A DNA stretch of 10,483 nucleotides, from positions 1 to 10,483 of the forward strand of contig NZ_JADWYQ010000087.1 of NCBI RefSeq assembly GCF_022414575.1, written 5' to 3'. Within the stretch, counting starts at the first letter, position 1, and the number at the start of each line of letters is the position of its first letter. Position numbers and translations under genes: made by a program. Of the stretch, positions 7,384 through 10,369 are shown in pieces. The stretch comes from Streptomyces sp. MUM 178J (GTDB taxonomy: Bacteria > Actinomycetota > Actinomycetes > Streptomycetales > Streptomycetaceae). The notes below the pieces were generated by a model that was not told the origin of the DNA, did not search any database, and was given only the letters and a program-made list of their open reading frames with translations.

Positions 7384-7998
7384 TCAGCGGGCGTAGTACT
7401 CGACGACCAGCTGCTCGTCGCAGATCACCGGGATCTCCTTGCGCTGCGGGTCGCGGTCCAGGCGGAAGGCCAGGGCCTTCAGGTTGACCTGCAGGTAGCG
7501 CGGGGTCTCGCCCTCGGGGGCGTAGCCGCCCTCACGCGCGACCTGGAAGGGGTGCTTGTCACGGCTGCGCTCGCGGACCATCACGACGTCGTCGGGACGG
7601 ACGCGGAACGACGGCTTGTCGACCTTGCCGCCGTTGACCTCGATGTGACCGTGGACGACCATCTGACGGGCCTGGTAGATGGTGCGGGCGATGCCCGAAC
7701 GCAGGACCAGGGCGTCGAGGCGGCGCTCGAGCTCGATGACCAGGGCGTCACCGGTCTTGCCCTCGGCCTTGCGGGCGCGGTCGTAGGCGCGCACCATCTG
7801 GCGCTCGCTGATGTCGTACTGGGCGCGCAGACGCTGCTTCTCGAGCAGACGCACCTTGTAGTCCGAGTTCTGCTTGCGACCGCGGCCGTGCTCGCCCGGC
7901 GGGTAGGGGCGGGCCTCGAAGTACTTGACGGCCTTCGGCGTCAGGGCGATGCCGAGCGCACGAGACTTCTTGACCTTGGGACGCGACTGGTTAGGCAC
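7384..7998 (-). CDS. rpsD: 30S ribosomal protein S4 (uS4)
   Basis: The 204-residue protein is a primary 16S rRNA binder that nucleates 30S assembly; family members may also regulate their own translation and act in antitermination. The S4 RNA-binding domain spans about 92-150 ([20 protein letters not shown], then [18 protein letters not shown]). The N-terminal region has [19 protein letters not shown] where zinc-binding S4 proteins carry four cysteines, so this is the zinc-free form; its only cysteine is near residue 193 (VICDEQ). The protein begins [16 protein letters not shown] from a GTG at 7998-7996, with GGAG (8005-8002) unusually close upstream. It is transcribed alone, away from the main ribosomal protein operons, divergently from the iron-box gene, and ends in a strong hairpin. 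Confidence 0.96.
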
Positions 7999-8021
7999 GT
8001 TCTCCAGACCTCCGATATAGG

Positions 8022-8040
8022 TTAGGTTAGGCTCACCTTA
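8022..8040 (+). promoter_or_regulatory. Iron box: DtxR/IdeR/DmdR-type repressor operator
   Basis: TTAGGTTAGGCTCACCTTA matches the actinobacterial iron-box consensus TTAGGTTAGGCTCACCTAA at 18 of 19 positions; the difference is T for A at position 18. The half-sites TTAGGTTAG and CTCACCTTA form an imperfect inverted repeat. The preceding bases add another AGGTT step (8019-8023), so the TTAGG-like unit repeats at 5-nt spacing and could hold two overlapping repressor dimers. TANNNT hexamers that could serve as -10 elements fall within the box, so Fe2+-loaded repressor should block transcription of the gene at 8055. It lies 15 nt ahead of that start codon and 24 nt ahead of the divergent rpsD start. 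Confidence 0.85.
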
Positions 8041-8043
8041 GTA

Positions 8044-8049
8044 AAGGAG
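8044..8049 (+). promoter_or_regulatory. Strong Shine-Dalgarno fixing the start at 8055
   Basis: AAGGAG is a full match to the anti-Shine-Dalgarno core, 5 nt before the ATG at 8055. It favours this start over the in-frame ATGs at 8127 and 8187, which have no comparable site. Confidence 0.75.
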
Positions 8050-8054
8050 ATCGC

Positions 8055-8879
8055 ATGTCTCGCCCTGGGAACACCACACCCATCACGGACAGCACAGACA
8101 ACGCCGACGCCCAGAGCATCGACATCATGACGGAGGTCCGATCAGATCGCGGTCAGCCGCGCCCCAGCGGGCTTGAAACCGCCCGGATGCCGTCAGCAGC
8201 CGAGCGCACACGAACTCTCGTACAGAGTACATGCTCCGCGGTGCTGCTCATCCCGGGGGTGGACGGGGTGCCTCCCGAACTGCTGATGCCTCAGGCCCGT
8301 GTGGCGGGCCCGGAGGGCGAGGTGTTCCTGCTGTATCCCGCAGACTCCCCCGCCGTGCGAGCCGCCACCCACGCCCAGGACGACGAGCTGCCCGCCGTGC
8401 TGGAGATCACCGATGTGGCGCCGGTGTCCGTCCCCCACCGCATCCGCGGACGCGCCTGGCTCTCCGGCTGGCTCACAACGGCCCCCAAAGTGGCCGAACC
8501 AGGCTTGATGATGCTCCGTCTCGAAGTCGGCGAGGCGTCGGTGGACGATCTGTGGGGCGCGCAGCAGGTCGAGCCCGAGGAGTTCGCCCGGGCGTCCGTC
8601 GACCCGCTCGTGGCGCACGAGGCGGAGCTGCTGCAGCATCTGCACGCCGCGCACAGCGACCAGGTGCAGTCGCTGTGCGGACTGCTGGGCGAGCGCGCGG
8701 AAGCGCCCGGCGGCCCGTCACAGCGGGCGGTGCCGCTGGCGCTGGACCGGTTCGGGCTGCGGGTGCGCATCACGGGGGAACGCTGTTTCGATGCGCGCTT
8801 CGACTTTCCCGAGCCGGTGCGCGACATCACCGGGCTGCGGCGCGCGATGCACGCGCTGTTCGAGGCGGCGGCGGCCTGA
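8055..8879 (+). CDS. DUF2470 / HugZ-like protein, probably iron-regulated
   Basis: The 274-residue soluble protein has three parts. Residues 1-45 are hydrophilic and probably disordered. Residues about 48-180 resemble an FMN-binding split barrel of the pyridoxamine-phosphate-oxidase/HugZ type (LVQSTCSAVLLIPG, GEVFLLYPADSPAV, RGRAWLSGWL). Residues about 184-272 form a DUF2470 domain (LVAHEAELLQHLHAAHSDQV, with H200 at the family's conserved histidine, then DRFGLRVRITG). In HugZ heme oxygenases this C-terminal domain helps bind heme. A role in heme or iron handling is therefore inferred from family and operator together; heme-degrading activity is not shown, and many DUF2470 proteins are uncharacterised. 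The ATG start is supported by AAGGAG, and an iron box lies just upstream. M45 would give the conserved core alone. The gene converges on rarA. Confidence 0.85.
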   Translation: MSRPGNTTPITDSTDNADAQSIDIMTEVRSDRGQPRPSGLETARMPSAAERTRTLVQSTCSAVLLIPGVDGVPPELLMPQARVAGPEGEVFLLYPADSPAVRAATHAQDDELPAVLEITDVAPVSVPHRIRGRAWLSGWLTTAPKVAEPGLMMLRLEVGEASVDDLWGAQQVEPEEFARASVDPLVAHEAELLQHLHAAHSDQVQSLCGLLGERAEAPGGPSQRAVPLALDRFGLRVRITGERCFDARFDFPEPVRDITGLRRAMHALFEAAAA

Positions 8880-9001: not shown

Positions 9002-10369
9002 TCAGCGCGGGTCCTCGCGGAACTCGCCGCGCAGGCGCTCGCGGACCCGGTCCACCACGTCCGCGTACCGCGCCTCCGCGCCATAGCGCGTGGGCTCGTA
9101 GTAGCGGCGGCCGTGCACCGCGTCCGGCGCGTACTGCTGTGCCGCGATGCCGCCGGGGACGTCGTGCGGATAGACATAGCCCTGGGCGTGACCGAGCTTG
9201 GCCGCGCCCTTGTAGTGGCCGTCGCGCAGATGGGCGGGCACGGGCCCCGCCAGGCCGTTGCGCACGTCCTGCTGGGCCGCGGCTATCGCGGTCGTCGCCG
9301 CGTTCGACTTGGGGGCCAGCGCCAGGGCGATGGTGGCGTGGCTGAGCGTGAGCGCCGCCTCGGGGAACCCGATCATCGCGACGGCCTGCGCGGCGGCCAC
9401 CGCGGTCGGCAGCGCGGTCGGATCGGCCAGGCCGATGTCCTCGCTGGCGGAGATCATCAGACGGCGGGCGATGAACCGCGGGTCCTCCCCCGCCTCGATC
9501 ATGCGGGCGAGGTAGTGCAGCGCCGCGTCCACATCCGAGCCGCGGATGGACTTGATCAGGGCGCTCGCCACGTCGTAGTGCTGGTCGCCGTCCCGGTCGT
9601 AGGCCACCGCGGCCCGGTCGACCGTCTCCTCGACGGTGGCGAGGGACACCTCCTGCTCGCCCTTGTCGAGCGCGGCCCCGGCGGCGGCCTCCAACGCGGT
9701 CAGCGCCCGGCGTGCGTCGCCGCCGGCGATCCGCAGCAGATGGGCCTCGGCCTCCGCGGACAGCTCCAGCGCCCCGCCGAGGCCGCGCTCCTCCGTCAGG
9801 GCCCGGCGCAGCAGCCCGCGCAGATCGTCGTCCGTCAGCGGCTCCAGGGTCAGCAGCAGCGAGCGGGACAGCAGCGGCGAGATCACCGAGAAGTACGGAT
9901 TCTCGGTGGTGGCGGCGATCAGCGTCACCCAGCGGTTCTCCACCGCGGGCAGCAGCGAGTCCTGCTGGGCCTTGCTGAAGCGGTGGATCTCGTCGAGGAA
10001 GAGGACGGTCTCCTTGCCGAAGCCGCCGGAGGCGCGGCGCGCGCCGTCGATGACGGCCCGCACCTCCTTGACCCCCGCGGTGATCGCGGAGAGCTCGACG
10101 AAGCGCTTGTCGGTCGCCTGGGAGACGACGTAGGCCAGCGTCGTCTTGCCGATGCCGGGAGGCCCCCAAAGGATCACGGACGACGCTCCGGCGGGCCCGC
10201 CTCGGGCCTCGCCGACGAGTCGGCGGAGAGGCGACCCGGGCTTCAGCAGATGCTGCTGGCCGACGACTTCGTCGAGGGTGCGCGGGCGCATCCGGACCGC
10301 CAGGGGGCTGCTGGACGGGTCCTTCTCCCGGCGCTCCTCGGCTGCTGCGGTGAACAGATCGGGCTCCAC
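9002..10369 (-). CDS. rarA: Replication-associated AAA+ ATPase RarA/MgsA
   Basis: The 455-residue protein is a clamp-loader-related AAA+ ATPase (MgsA; eukaryotic WRNIP1) that acts at stalled replication forks. Motifs: [15 protein letters not shown] (28-42), Walker [10 protein letters not shown] (69-77), Walker [10 protein letters not shown] (123-131), sensor 1 ATTEN (153-157), arginine finger in LLSRS (166-170) and sensor 2 [11 protein letters not shown] (217-227). The C-terminal tetramerisation part carries the family signature [21 protein letters not shown] (383-403). The first ~10 residues may resemble a clamp-binding peptide (QPDLF-like: EPDLF, 2-6), as often seen in RarA. The GTG start at 10369-10367 was chosen because MEPDLF is a typical N-terminus; the ribosome-binding site is weak. 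It follows the upstream same-strand gene by 50 nt. The ATPase motifs all look intact. Confidence 0.95.

Follow-up and report, generated by a model that had tools for sequence, protein, structure and literature searches.

The 10,483-nucleotide stretch of Streptomyces sp. MUM 178J analyzed here (contig NZ_JADWYQ010000087.1, referred to below as the window) carries a predicted iron box in the short gap between rpsD, which encodes ribosomal protein S4, and a divergent gene for a 274-amino acid (aa) protein with a DUF2470 domain. The box is best explained as a DmdR (IdeR-type) operator lying over the promoter of a two-domain heme-protein gene that would be repressed by iron, a reading to which a probability of about 0.82 may be assigned. 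It is carried by the site, its conservation, its link to the DUF2470 gene, a repressor gene in the same genome and a modelled protein fold; repressor binding, an iron response, heme binding and a particular heme role would follow from it. On the minus strand, positions 8001-8234 appear to form a conserved, covarying RNA that would serve as the leader of rpsD.

The site, TTAGGTTAGGCTCACCTTA, was compared with two strings that we take to be the iron-box consensus, the DmdR form TTAGGTTAGGCTCACCTAA and the palindrome TTAGGTTAGGCTAACCTAA. It differs from the DmdR form at one position, which bears out the 18 of 19 matching bases at 8022-8040 claimed in a preliminary description of this DNA, and from the palindrome at two (17 of 19), or at three when read on the other strand. 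The box lies in the 56-base gap between the rpsD start (7998, minus strand) and the DUF2470 gene start (8055, plus strand), with 23 bases between it and the former; the preliminary description had left this divergent rpsD start unmentioned. Between the box and the ATG at 8055 there are 14 bases, so the earlier placement just 5' of the start codon (given as 15 nt) also stands. No iron-box site with three or fewer mismatches appeared in 200 dinucleotide shuffles of the window. At the same threshold, the 6.63-Mb genome contains six distinct places and a backward-read control contains none. Four of the five other places adjoin genes for FecCD, siderophore-interacting proteins (two such) or a semialdehyde dehydrogenase, neighbors that fit a DmdR regulon as expected. 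From the shuffles, the genome control and the conservation across loci, a chance match or an accident of one lineage was ruled out. As a separate observation, iron-box-like sites at C7:45433-45451 and C7:41313-41331 of the same genome lie near semialdehyde-dehydrogenase (argC-like) and amino-acid-kinase genes in a stretch that also holds a boxed siderophore-interacting protein gene and the FecCD gene; iron control of ornithine supply is possible there.

Since the box lies between two genes, its ownership was examined across loci, with a box scored within three mismatches. It is kept in all 124 rpsD-linked orthologue loci examined (80 named, 20 diverged and 24 further). At each of the 80 named loci rpsD lies alongside and the box usually starts 33 bases before the gene start; at the 20 diverged loci beside rpsD it is found 22-23 bases from the rpsD start; and the 24 loci of an order-wide search, which exclude loci gathered earlier and two out-family ones, all have both rpsD and the box. 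A set of 30 additional rpsD-linked loci (L087-L116) carries it without exception, the locus sets sharing some species. The preliminary description had proposed looking for relatives that lost the box while keeping the gene; none was found, as all 124 keep the site. At rpsD without a close DUF2470 orthologue, the result is the reverse. From 77 such Streptomyces genomes, 28 rpsD loci were sampled and the start was readable by motif in 26, the remaining two being L175, without upstream DNA on its contig, and L174, whose start the motif did not recognize. None of the 26 readable upstream regions (220 bases) has a box, with the best site at seven mismatches, and the 28 loci scanned whole contain none at three or fewer mismatches. 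DUF2470 relatives elsewhere in Streptomyces genomes have the box in 19 of 20 cases (20 of 20 at four mismatches), as do all four relatives from a second family within the order, and none of these 24 stretches shows the rpsD motif. When the consensus was permuted, 40 such strings matched on average 0.0 loci at three mismatches in each of the six locus sets.

Because the box is kept at rpsD-linked, unlinked and out-family loci and is missing at orthologue-free rpsD, the predicted operator belongs to the DUF2470 gene and follows that gene wherever it is located. Ownership by rpsD was rejected on the strength of the 26 boxless upstream regions. Two points weigh against this assignment. One orthologue-free locus, L174, has a single site at four mismatches somewhere in its 3.6 kb, and in close orthologues the box overlaps an RNA element, so that part of its conservation there may have another cause. 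The second objection is answered by the relatives at other loci, which keep the box. The rpsD-linked boxes share a sequence mark: position 18 is T in 124 of 124, where the palindrome has A, while boxes of relatives elsewhere mostly end in the symmetric ACCTAA or GCCTAA. Another DUF2470 gene type, with an N-terminus of MRPF or MRSF (L210-L212, L214), has its box more than 50 bases from the start where placeable, a longer distance than in the other types. By our count of best E-values among 150 genomes, the present one included, 73 have the rpsD-linked type (E < 1e-30), 73 have weaker matches only and four have none.

The genome encodes one protein with a strong DtxR-type match (L246, E 1.1e-19), and a second passes the cut-off weakly. 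The best PDB match of L246 is IdeR (E 4.8e-82), with an N-terminal half that is nearly identical. By these matches an IdeR-like repressor is encoded in the same genome, in keeping with the DtxR-family repressor that the preliminary description had called upon. The locus is best read as placing a heme-type protein under iron control. In iron-rich conditions, metal-loaded DmdR would sit on 8022-8040 and block transcription of the DUF2470 gene; bound there, it would overlap the -10 region of that gene, as the DmdR site does at desA in the available portion of PMC6401478. When iron is short, the repressor would leave the site and the DUF2470 protein would be made. The product would then bind heme and either free its iron, in the manner of HugZ, or restrain heme synthesis, in the manner of Rv3839 or the plant glutamyl-tRNA reductase (GluTR)-binding protein GBP.

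A start at 8055 is favored over the internal Met45, at which many NCBI records of relatives begin (about 230 aa), since a probable ribosome-binding site precedes it, the ATG is kept in relatives and out-family loci share the arrangement. The majority sequence at the ribosome-binding site is AAGGAG among 80 orthologues and the window. The equivalent ATG is kept by all but one of the 80 named orthologues (79) and all but two of the 20 diverged ones (18), being lost in L037, L182 and L183, and four out-family loci present the box, GAGGAG and an ATG that lies 36-37 bases after the box begins compared with 33 in the window. Conservation of the 44-residue extension that results is weaker evidence for the start, because the overlapping RNA partly explains it. 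The extension (8055-8186) has mostly low confidence in the protein model. The out-family genes (L242-L245) have Cys/His-containing N-terminal extensions directly after the box.

The protein matches Pfam DUF2470 (PF10615) with an E-value of 1e-6 and 29.6 bits against a cut-off of 22, in agreement with the HugZ-type C-terminal domain reported beforehand. The family is also matched at E 0.01 by all 39 members of a protein alignment (A4) chosen from 240 listed sequences. A profile of these relatives matched MSMEG_6519 over residues 43-271 (E 9.7e-11) and, through the second domain, plant HOZ, GBP and, weakly, Dri1 (E 0.0045 to 0.26). An AlphaFold2 model calculated with the 39-sequence alignment had a mean predicted local distance difference test score (pLDDT) of 79.5, with residues 1-29 and 38-42 under 50; an earlier model without an alignment (pLDDT = 37.9) was not used. 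Among the matches listed by Foldseek and VIA-align, the closest were MSMEG_6519, GBP and HOZ-type chains, and the VIA-align Z scores of the GBP entries (19.7, 19.7 and 19.5) tie with MSMEG_6519. HugZ is absent among the 50 VIA-align matches listed, which excludes nothing. From the model and the remote match, the protein has the HugZ-type architecture of an N-terminal split barrel and a C-terminal DUF2470 domain, and it has the two-domain fold of GBP. The heme-ligand histidine of HugZ is situated in a C-terminal loop; the protein of the window ends six residues after its Pfam DUF2470 match.

Two histidines, His195 and His200, do not vary among the 39 aligned sequences; they correspond in the profile alignment to the first and second zinc/heme histidines of Dri1, whose aligned chain was an H79A variant. 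Other observations weigh against a heme protein. The third Dri1 histidine has no exact counterpart; in the profile alignment His266 lies four residues (about one helical turn) further along, and it is missing in 3 of the 39 sequences. The split barrel has no Pfam match in any of the 39 members and is seen in the model and the remote match only, and a shared fold shows no function. On balance, the sequence and model indicate that the product is likely a heme protein.

Two heme roles may be considered. One, quite possible, is that of a HugZ-type heme oxygenase: under starvation the protein would open heme and so free its iron. HugZ-type proteins and this DUF2470 protein have the same two domains, SCO0799 is an iron-boxed gene of the DUF2470 type, two HOZ-type structures (6m0a and 9bl1) rank among the top matches by fold, and HugZ, ChuZ and plant HOZ members degrade heme according to the accessible text of PMC11014987. 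The same text describes HugZ and ChuZ as a relatively small subfamily, and the nearest solved relative by profile, MSMEG_6519, is titled merely heme binding; both observations count against an oxygenase. Also possible, and held tentatively, is a heme-dependent brake on heme synthesis that is made when iron is too scarce for porphyrin. Such a role has been proposed for Rv3839 and resembles that of plant GBP, which acts on glutamyl-tRNA reductase. In the available part of PMC13258150, the low-iron induction of the DUF2470 protein Rv3839 is IdeR-dependent and loss of rv3839-rv3840 raises heme and porphyrin intermediates, findings that sit well with a brake, as does the tie of GBP with MSMEG_6519 among the matches listed. 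Regulation of glutamyl-tRNA reductase by Rv3839 is, in that part, only posited by its authors.

Table 1. Features of the locus, with coordinates in the window.
Feature	Position	Strand	Basis
rpsD, ribosomal protein S4	7384-7998	-	reading frame and profile match
Predicted hairpin in which the rpsD Shine-Dalgarno sequence GGAGGT pairs with the iron-box complement plus two bases next to the box	8004-8031	-	RNAalifold, 44 sequences
Iron box, predicted DmdR/IdeR operator	8022-8040	+	consensus match, conservation across loci
Probable ribosome-binding site AAAGGAG of the DUF2470 gene	8043-8049	+	sequence
Core (model R1) of a putative multibranched rpsD leader RNA, antisense to the DUF2470 gene at its 5' end	8046-8218	-	covariation, covariance model
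Gene for the 274-aa split-barrel and DUF2470 (DRI) protein	8055-8879	+	Pfam, profile, model, orthologue ATG
Block conserved at base level, third codon positions included	8131-8236		base identity across orthologues; a small number of bases vary around 8177-8183
N-terminal split-barrel (PNPOx-like) domain, residues 45-172	8187-8570	+	model, limits approximate
Candidate -10 element TACTCT (TAnnnT) of an rpsD promoter	8224-8229	-	inference; five of six bases invariant in 44 sequences
DUF2470 / DRI domain, residues 190-268	8622-8858	+	Pfam, alignment, profile
RarA-like AAA ATPase gene, flank of the locus	9005-10369	-	NCBIfam matches, all below cut-offs

The reading of the minus strand as an rpsD leader rests on covariation and on a strand test. 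From 110 loci (L007-L116), of which 109 were readable and 89 distinct, 48 were picked for diversity and 44 were aligned after four with long inserts had been excluded; L106 was missed by the search pattern though boxed. On the rpsD strand the predicted structure has 64 pairs, 99.0% of 2807 cells are paired, and 39 cells are changed on both sides compared with 8.0 after shuffling (0 of 500 shuffles reach 39). Three limits of this comparison give more weight to the strand test: relatedness is not preserved by the shuffles, the alignment that was scored also supplied the structure, and one measure in five is not raised. Of the 64 predicted pairs on the rpsD strand, 22 use G-U in some sequence and one uses A-C; the opposite tendency would be expected if silent C/T changes in the DUF2470 frame were acting alone. 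When each strand of the leader is folded separately, there are 352 G-U and 7 A-C cells on the rpsD strand versus 53 and 89 on the other. Three control tiles of the gene have about 3 to 6 G-U per A-C, with both strands alike. The consensus energy is -129 kcal/mol on the rpsD strand and about -117 kcal/mol on the other, and the single-sequence energy is lower on the rpsD strand in 43 of 44. Folding the window by itself did not settle the matter, with z values of -1.80 and -1.26 for two spans of the minus strand and -0.20 and -1.05 for two of the plus strand.

Several results weigh against a leader. Further standard pair types number 29 compared with 27.0 after shuffling (73 of 500 shuffles reach 29), and the structure slid by +3 still has 30 cells with changes on both sides, compared with 39 in place, with just 37.6% of its cells then paired. 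Helices 1 and 9 have no covariation and helix 2 has one-sided changes only. The strand contrast is weaker in the diverged group (156 G-U to 17 A-C versus 80 to 39), and mismatched cells in the leader tile are few on both strands. The conserved block itself was also considered as a leader or upstream open reading frame of the DUF2470 mRNA rather than of rpsD. Most of its bases are identical in more than 90% of 81 sequences (close orthologues), and it uses A- and T-ending codons that are unusual for a GC-rich genome. Four-fold codons within 45-62 have their most frequent third base at an average share of 0.94, compared with 0.63 to 0.72 later in the gene. These values are from 75 sequences including the window, as six of the 80 loci, whose start is not ATGTCT, were left out (five with another ATGTCN, and L037 without the ATG). 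In favor of a DUF2470 mRNA element, a start at Met45, as in many records, would place about 150 nt of leader downstream of the box, and the two strands of the leader tile have similarly few mismatched cells (40 on the DUF2470 strand, 45 on the rpsD strand). These counts are similar because the whole block is so conserved, with a column identity of 0.91 versus 0.79 to 0.84 in the control tiles, where mismatched cells number 257 to 389. The balance of G-U and A-C pairs and both energy measures favor the rpsD strand. An element of the DUF2470 mRNA is thus highly improbable and was rejected on the strand test, leaving the rpsD leader as the preferred reading.

A covariance model of the leader core (R1; 8046-8218), built from 24 of the 44 aligned sequences, has a single match per genome in 40 of 101 genomes, and these 40 all carry the rpsD-linked gene type; if the 101 are genomes G000-G100, 56 carry that type by our count. 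In the diverged group, R1 matches the rpsD strand at E < 0.001 in 12 of 20 loci, with weaker matches on both strands, and shared coding sequence adds to these scores. A search of Rfam with 7900-8400 of the window returned four matches, all to microRNA or long non-coding RNA families below the gathering score. The candidate -10 element lies five bases before the R1 core. It is accompanied by no match to a -35 element, and a sigma-70 promoter scan found no promoter. In the diverged group, TAnnnT precedes the leader in 10 of the 15 sequences in which the motif is placeable, 5 of 20 being unplaced. In the hairpin at 8004-8031, seven of eight pairs never vary, so covariation neither supports nor opposes it.

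Streptomyces without a DUF2470 orthologue have a structured rpsD leader of another sequence (L148-L173, alignment A5). A model of this leader (R2), built from 18 gene-free loci, was found in 6 of 6 held-out rpsD loci. The two leaders are alike in size and place, R2 having 175 model positions and ending some 38-52 bases before the rpsD start, and R1 having 173 positions and ending 47 bases before it. Neither model recognizes the other leader: with R1, run on 17 of the 28 gene-free loci, nothing scored below E 0.2, and R2 had no match at the leader of the window. The strand test of the R2 leader showed no clear contrast, and Rfam had no match on three rpsD loci without the gene.

With the leader core on one side of the box and the rpsD start on the other, and with the leader antisense to the start of the DUF2470 gene, the two divergent transcripts should have overlapping 5' ends, and cross-talk would be possible in both directions. 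The complementarity, predicted at about 180 nt, would take in the DUF2470 ribosome-binding site. The position of the box and the overlap both suggest that it might also control rpsD, with bound DmdR blocking rpsD via its leader or DUF2470 transcription in low iron interfering with it. This is rather unlikely, as rpsD does not need the box in 26 of 26 readable orthologue-free upstream regions, and blocking rpsD in rich iron would seem costly. A fuller arrangement, in which an iron-gated 5'-to-5' overlap lets DmdR occupancy and DUF2470 transcription tune the supply of S4 while rpsD transcription damps the heme gene, is unlikely. If true, about 40 to 50 percent of the sampled Streptomyces species would have their ribosome production coupled to iron through the overlap, a range based on 40 of 101 genomes with the leader model and 73 of 150 with the rpsD-linked gene type.

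The preferred reading, an iron-repressed heme-protein gene under DmdR, connects iron control with a domain that is still poorly understood, both throughout a genus and in a further family of its order. An operator that travels with its gene makes the heme function directly testable. The overlapping RNA, matched by no Rfam family, may regulate rpsD in Streptomyces, and its position makes a possible coupling of ribosome production to iron supply testable as well. The operator is of a known kind; its embedding in an rpsD leader is new as far as our searches reach. Within the open-licence PMC literature, no paper was found on Streptomyces rpsD with an iron box, leader autoregulation or an antisense untranslated region, and a search for ribosomal leaders, rpsD and Actinobacteria turned up PMC7247131 alone. 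In the portion of that paper available, bacterial S4 leaders are structured RNAs before rpsD, as in the window, and its table of 20 new candidates places S4 leaders in Bacteroidia, Clostridia, Flavobacteria and Fusobacteriales, none being actinobacterial.

Iron-boxed DUF2470 genes are already in print, at least in the portions of the papers available, so the operator part is ordinary and the preliminary term 'otherwise uncharacterised' is too strong for a family in which the S. griseus gene, SCO0799 and Rv3839 have been described. SCO0799 of S. coelicolor is presented in the accessible part of PMC12161575 as a HugZ-like heme oxygenase in the predicted DmdR1 regulon, which likens it to the gene of the window; the loci of about 40% identity away from rpsD, such as L196-L209, are presumably its orthologues. 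The 'heme iron utilization family DUF2470' gene of S. griseus has a DmdR1-like motif that ends in ACCTTA, as in the group of the window (PMC8914203, main text, where rpsD is not mentioned); the section on it gives the gene no locus name. S. griseus NCTC13033 (L061) has an rpsD-linked orthologue with a box, and the two genes are presumably the same.

Among the solved relatives, the heme binding protein MSMEG_6519 (5bnc) matches the window protein by profile and fold with 22% identity. The plant GluTR-binding and HOZ-type proteins (4n7r/5che/5yjl, 6m09/6m0a and 9bl1) have the same two-domain fold but are chloroplast proteins with 14-19% identity. In the available text of PMC11014987, the GBP split barrel is N-terminal, yet plant homologues are said to have a swapped order; the plant-protein alignments to the window protein run in the same domain order. 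Dri1 (Ssr1698), with the zinc-mirror heme site described there, is likewise a DUF2470 protein, the first two histidines of its triad (His16, His21 and His79) aligning with His195 and His200. It differs in being a single domain and in its third histidine, which is not matched in place. Rv3839 of Mycobacterium tuberculosis resembles the window gene in its DUF2470 domain, putative IdeR site and low-iron induction, and differs from it in forming an operon with Rv3840 beside bfrB, as far as PMC13258150 is available.
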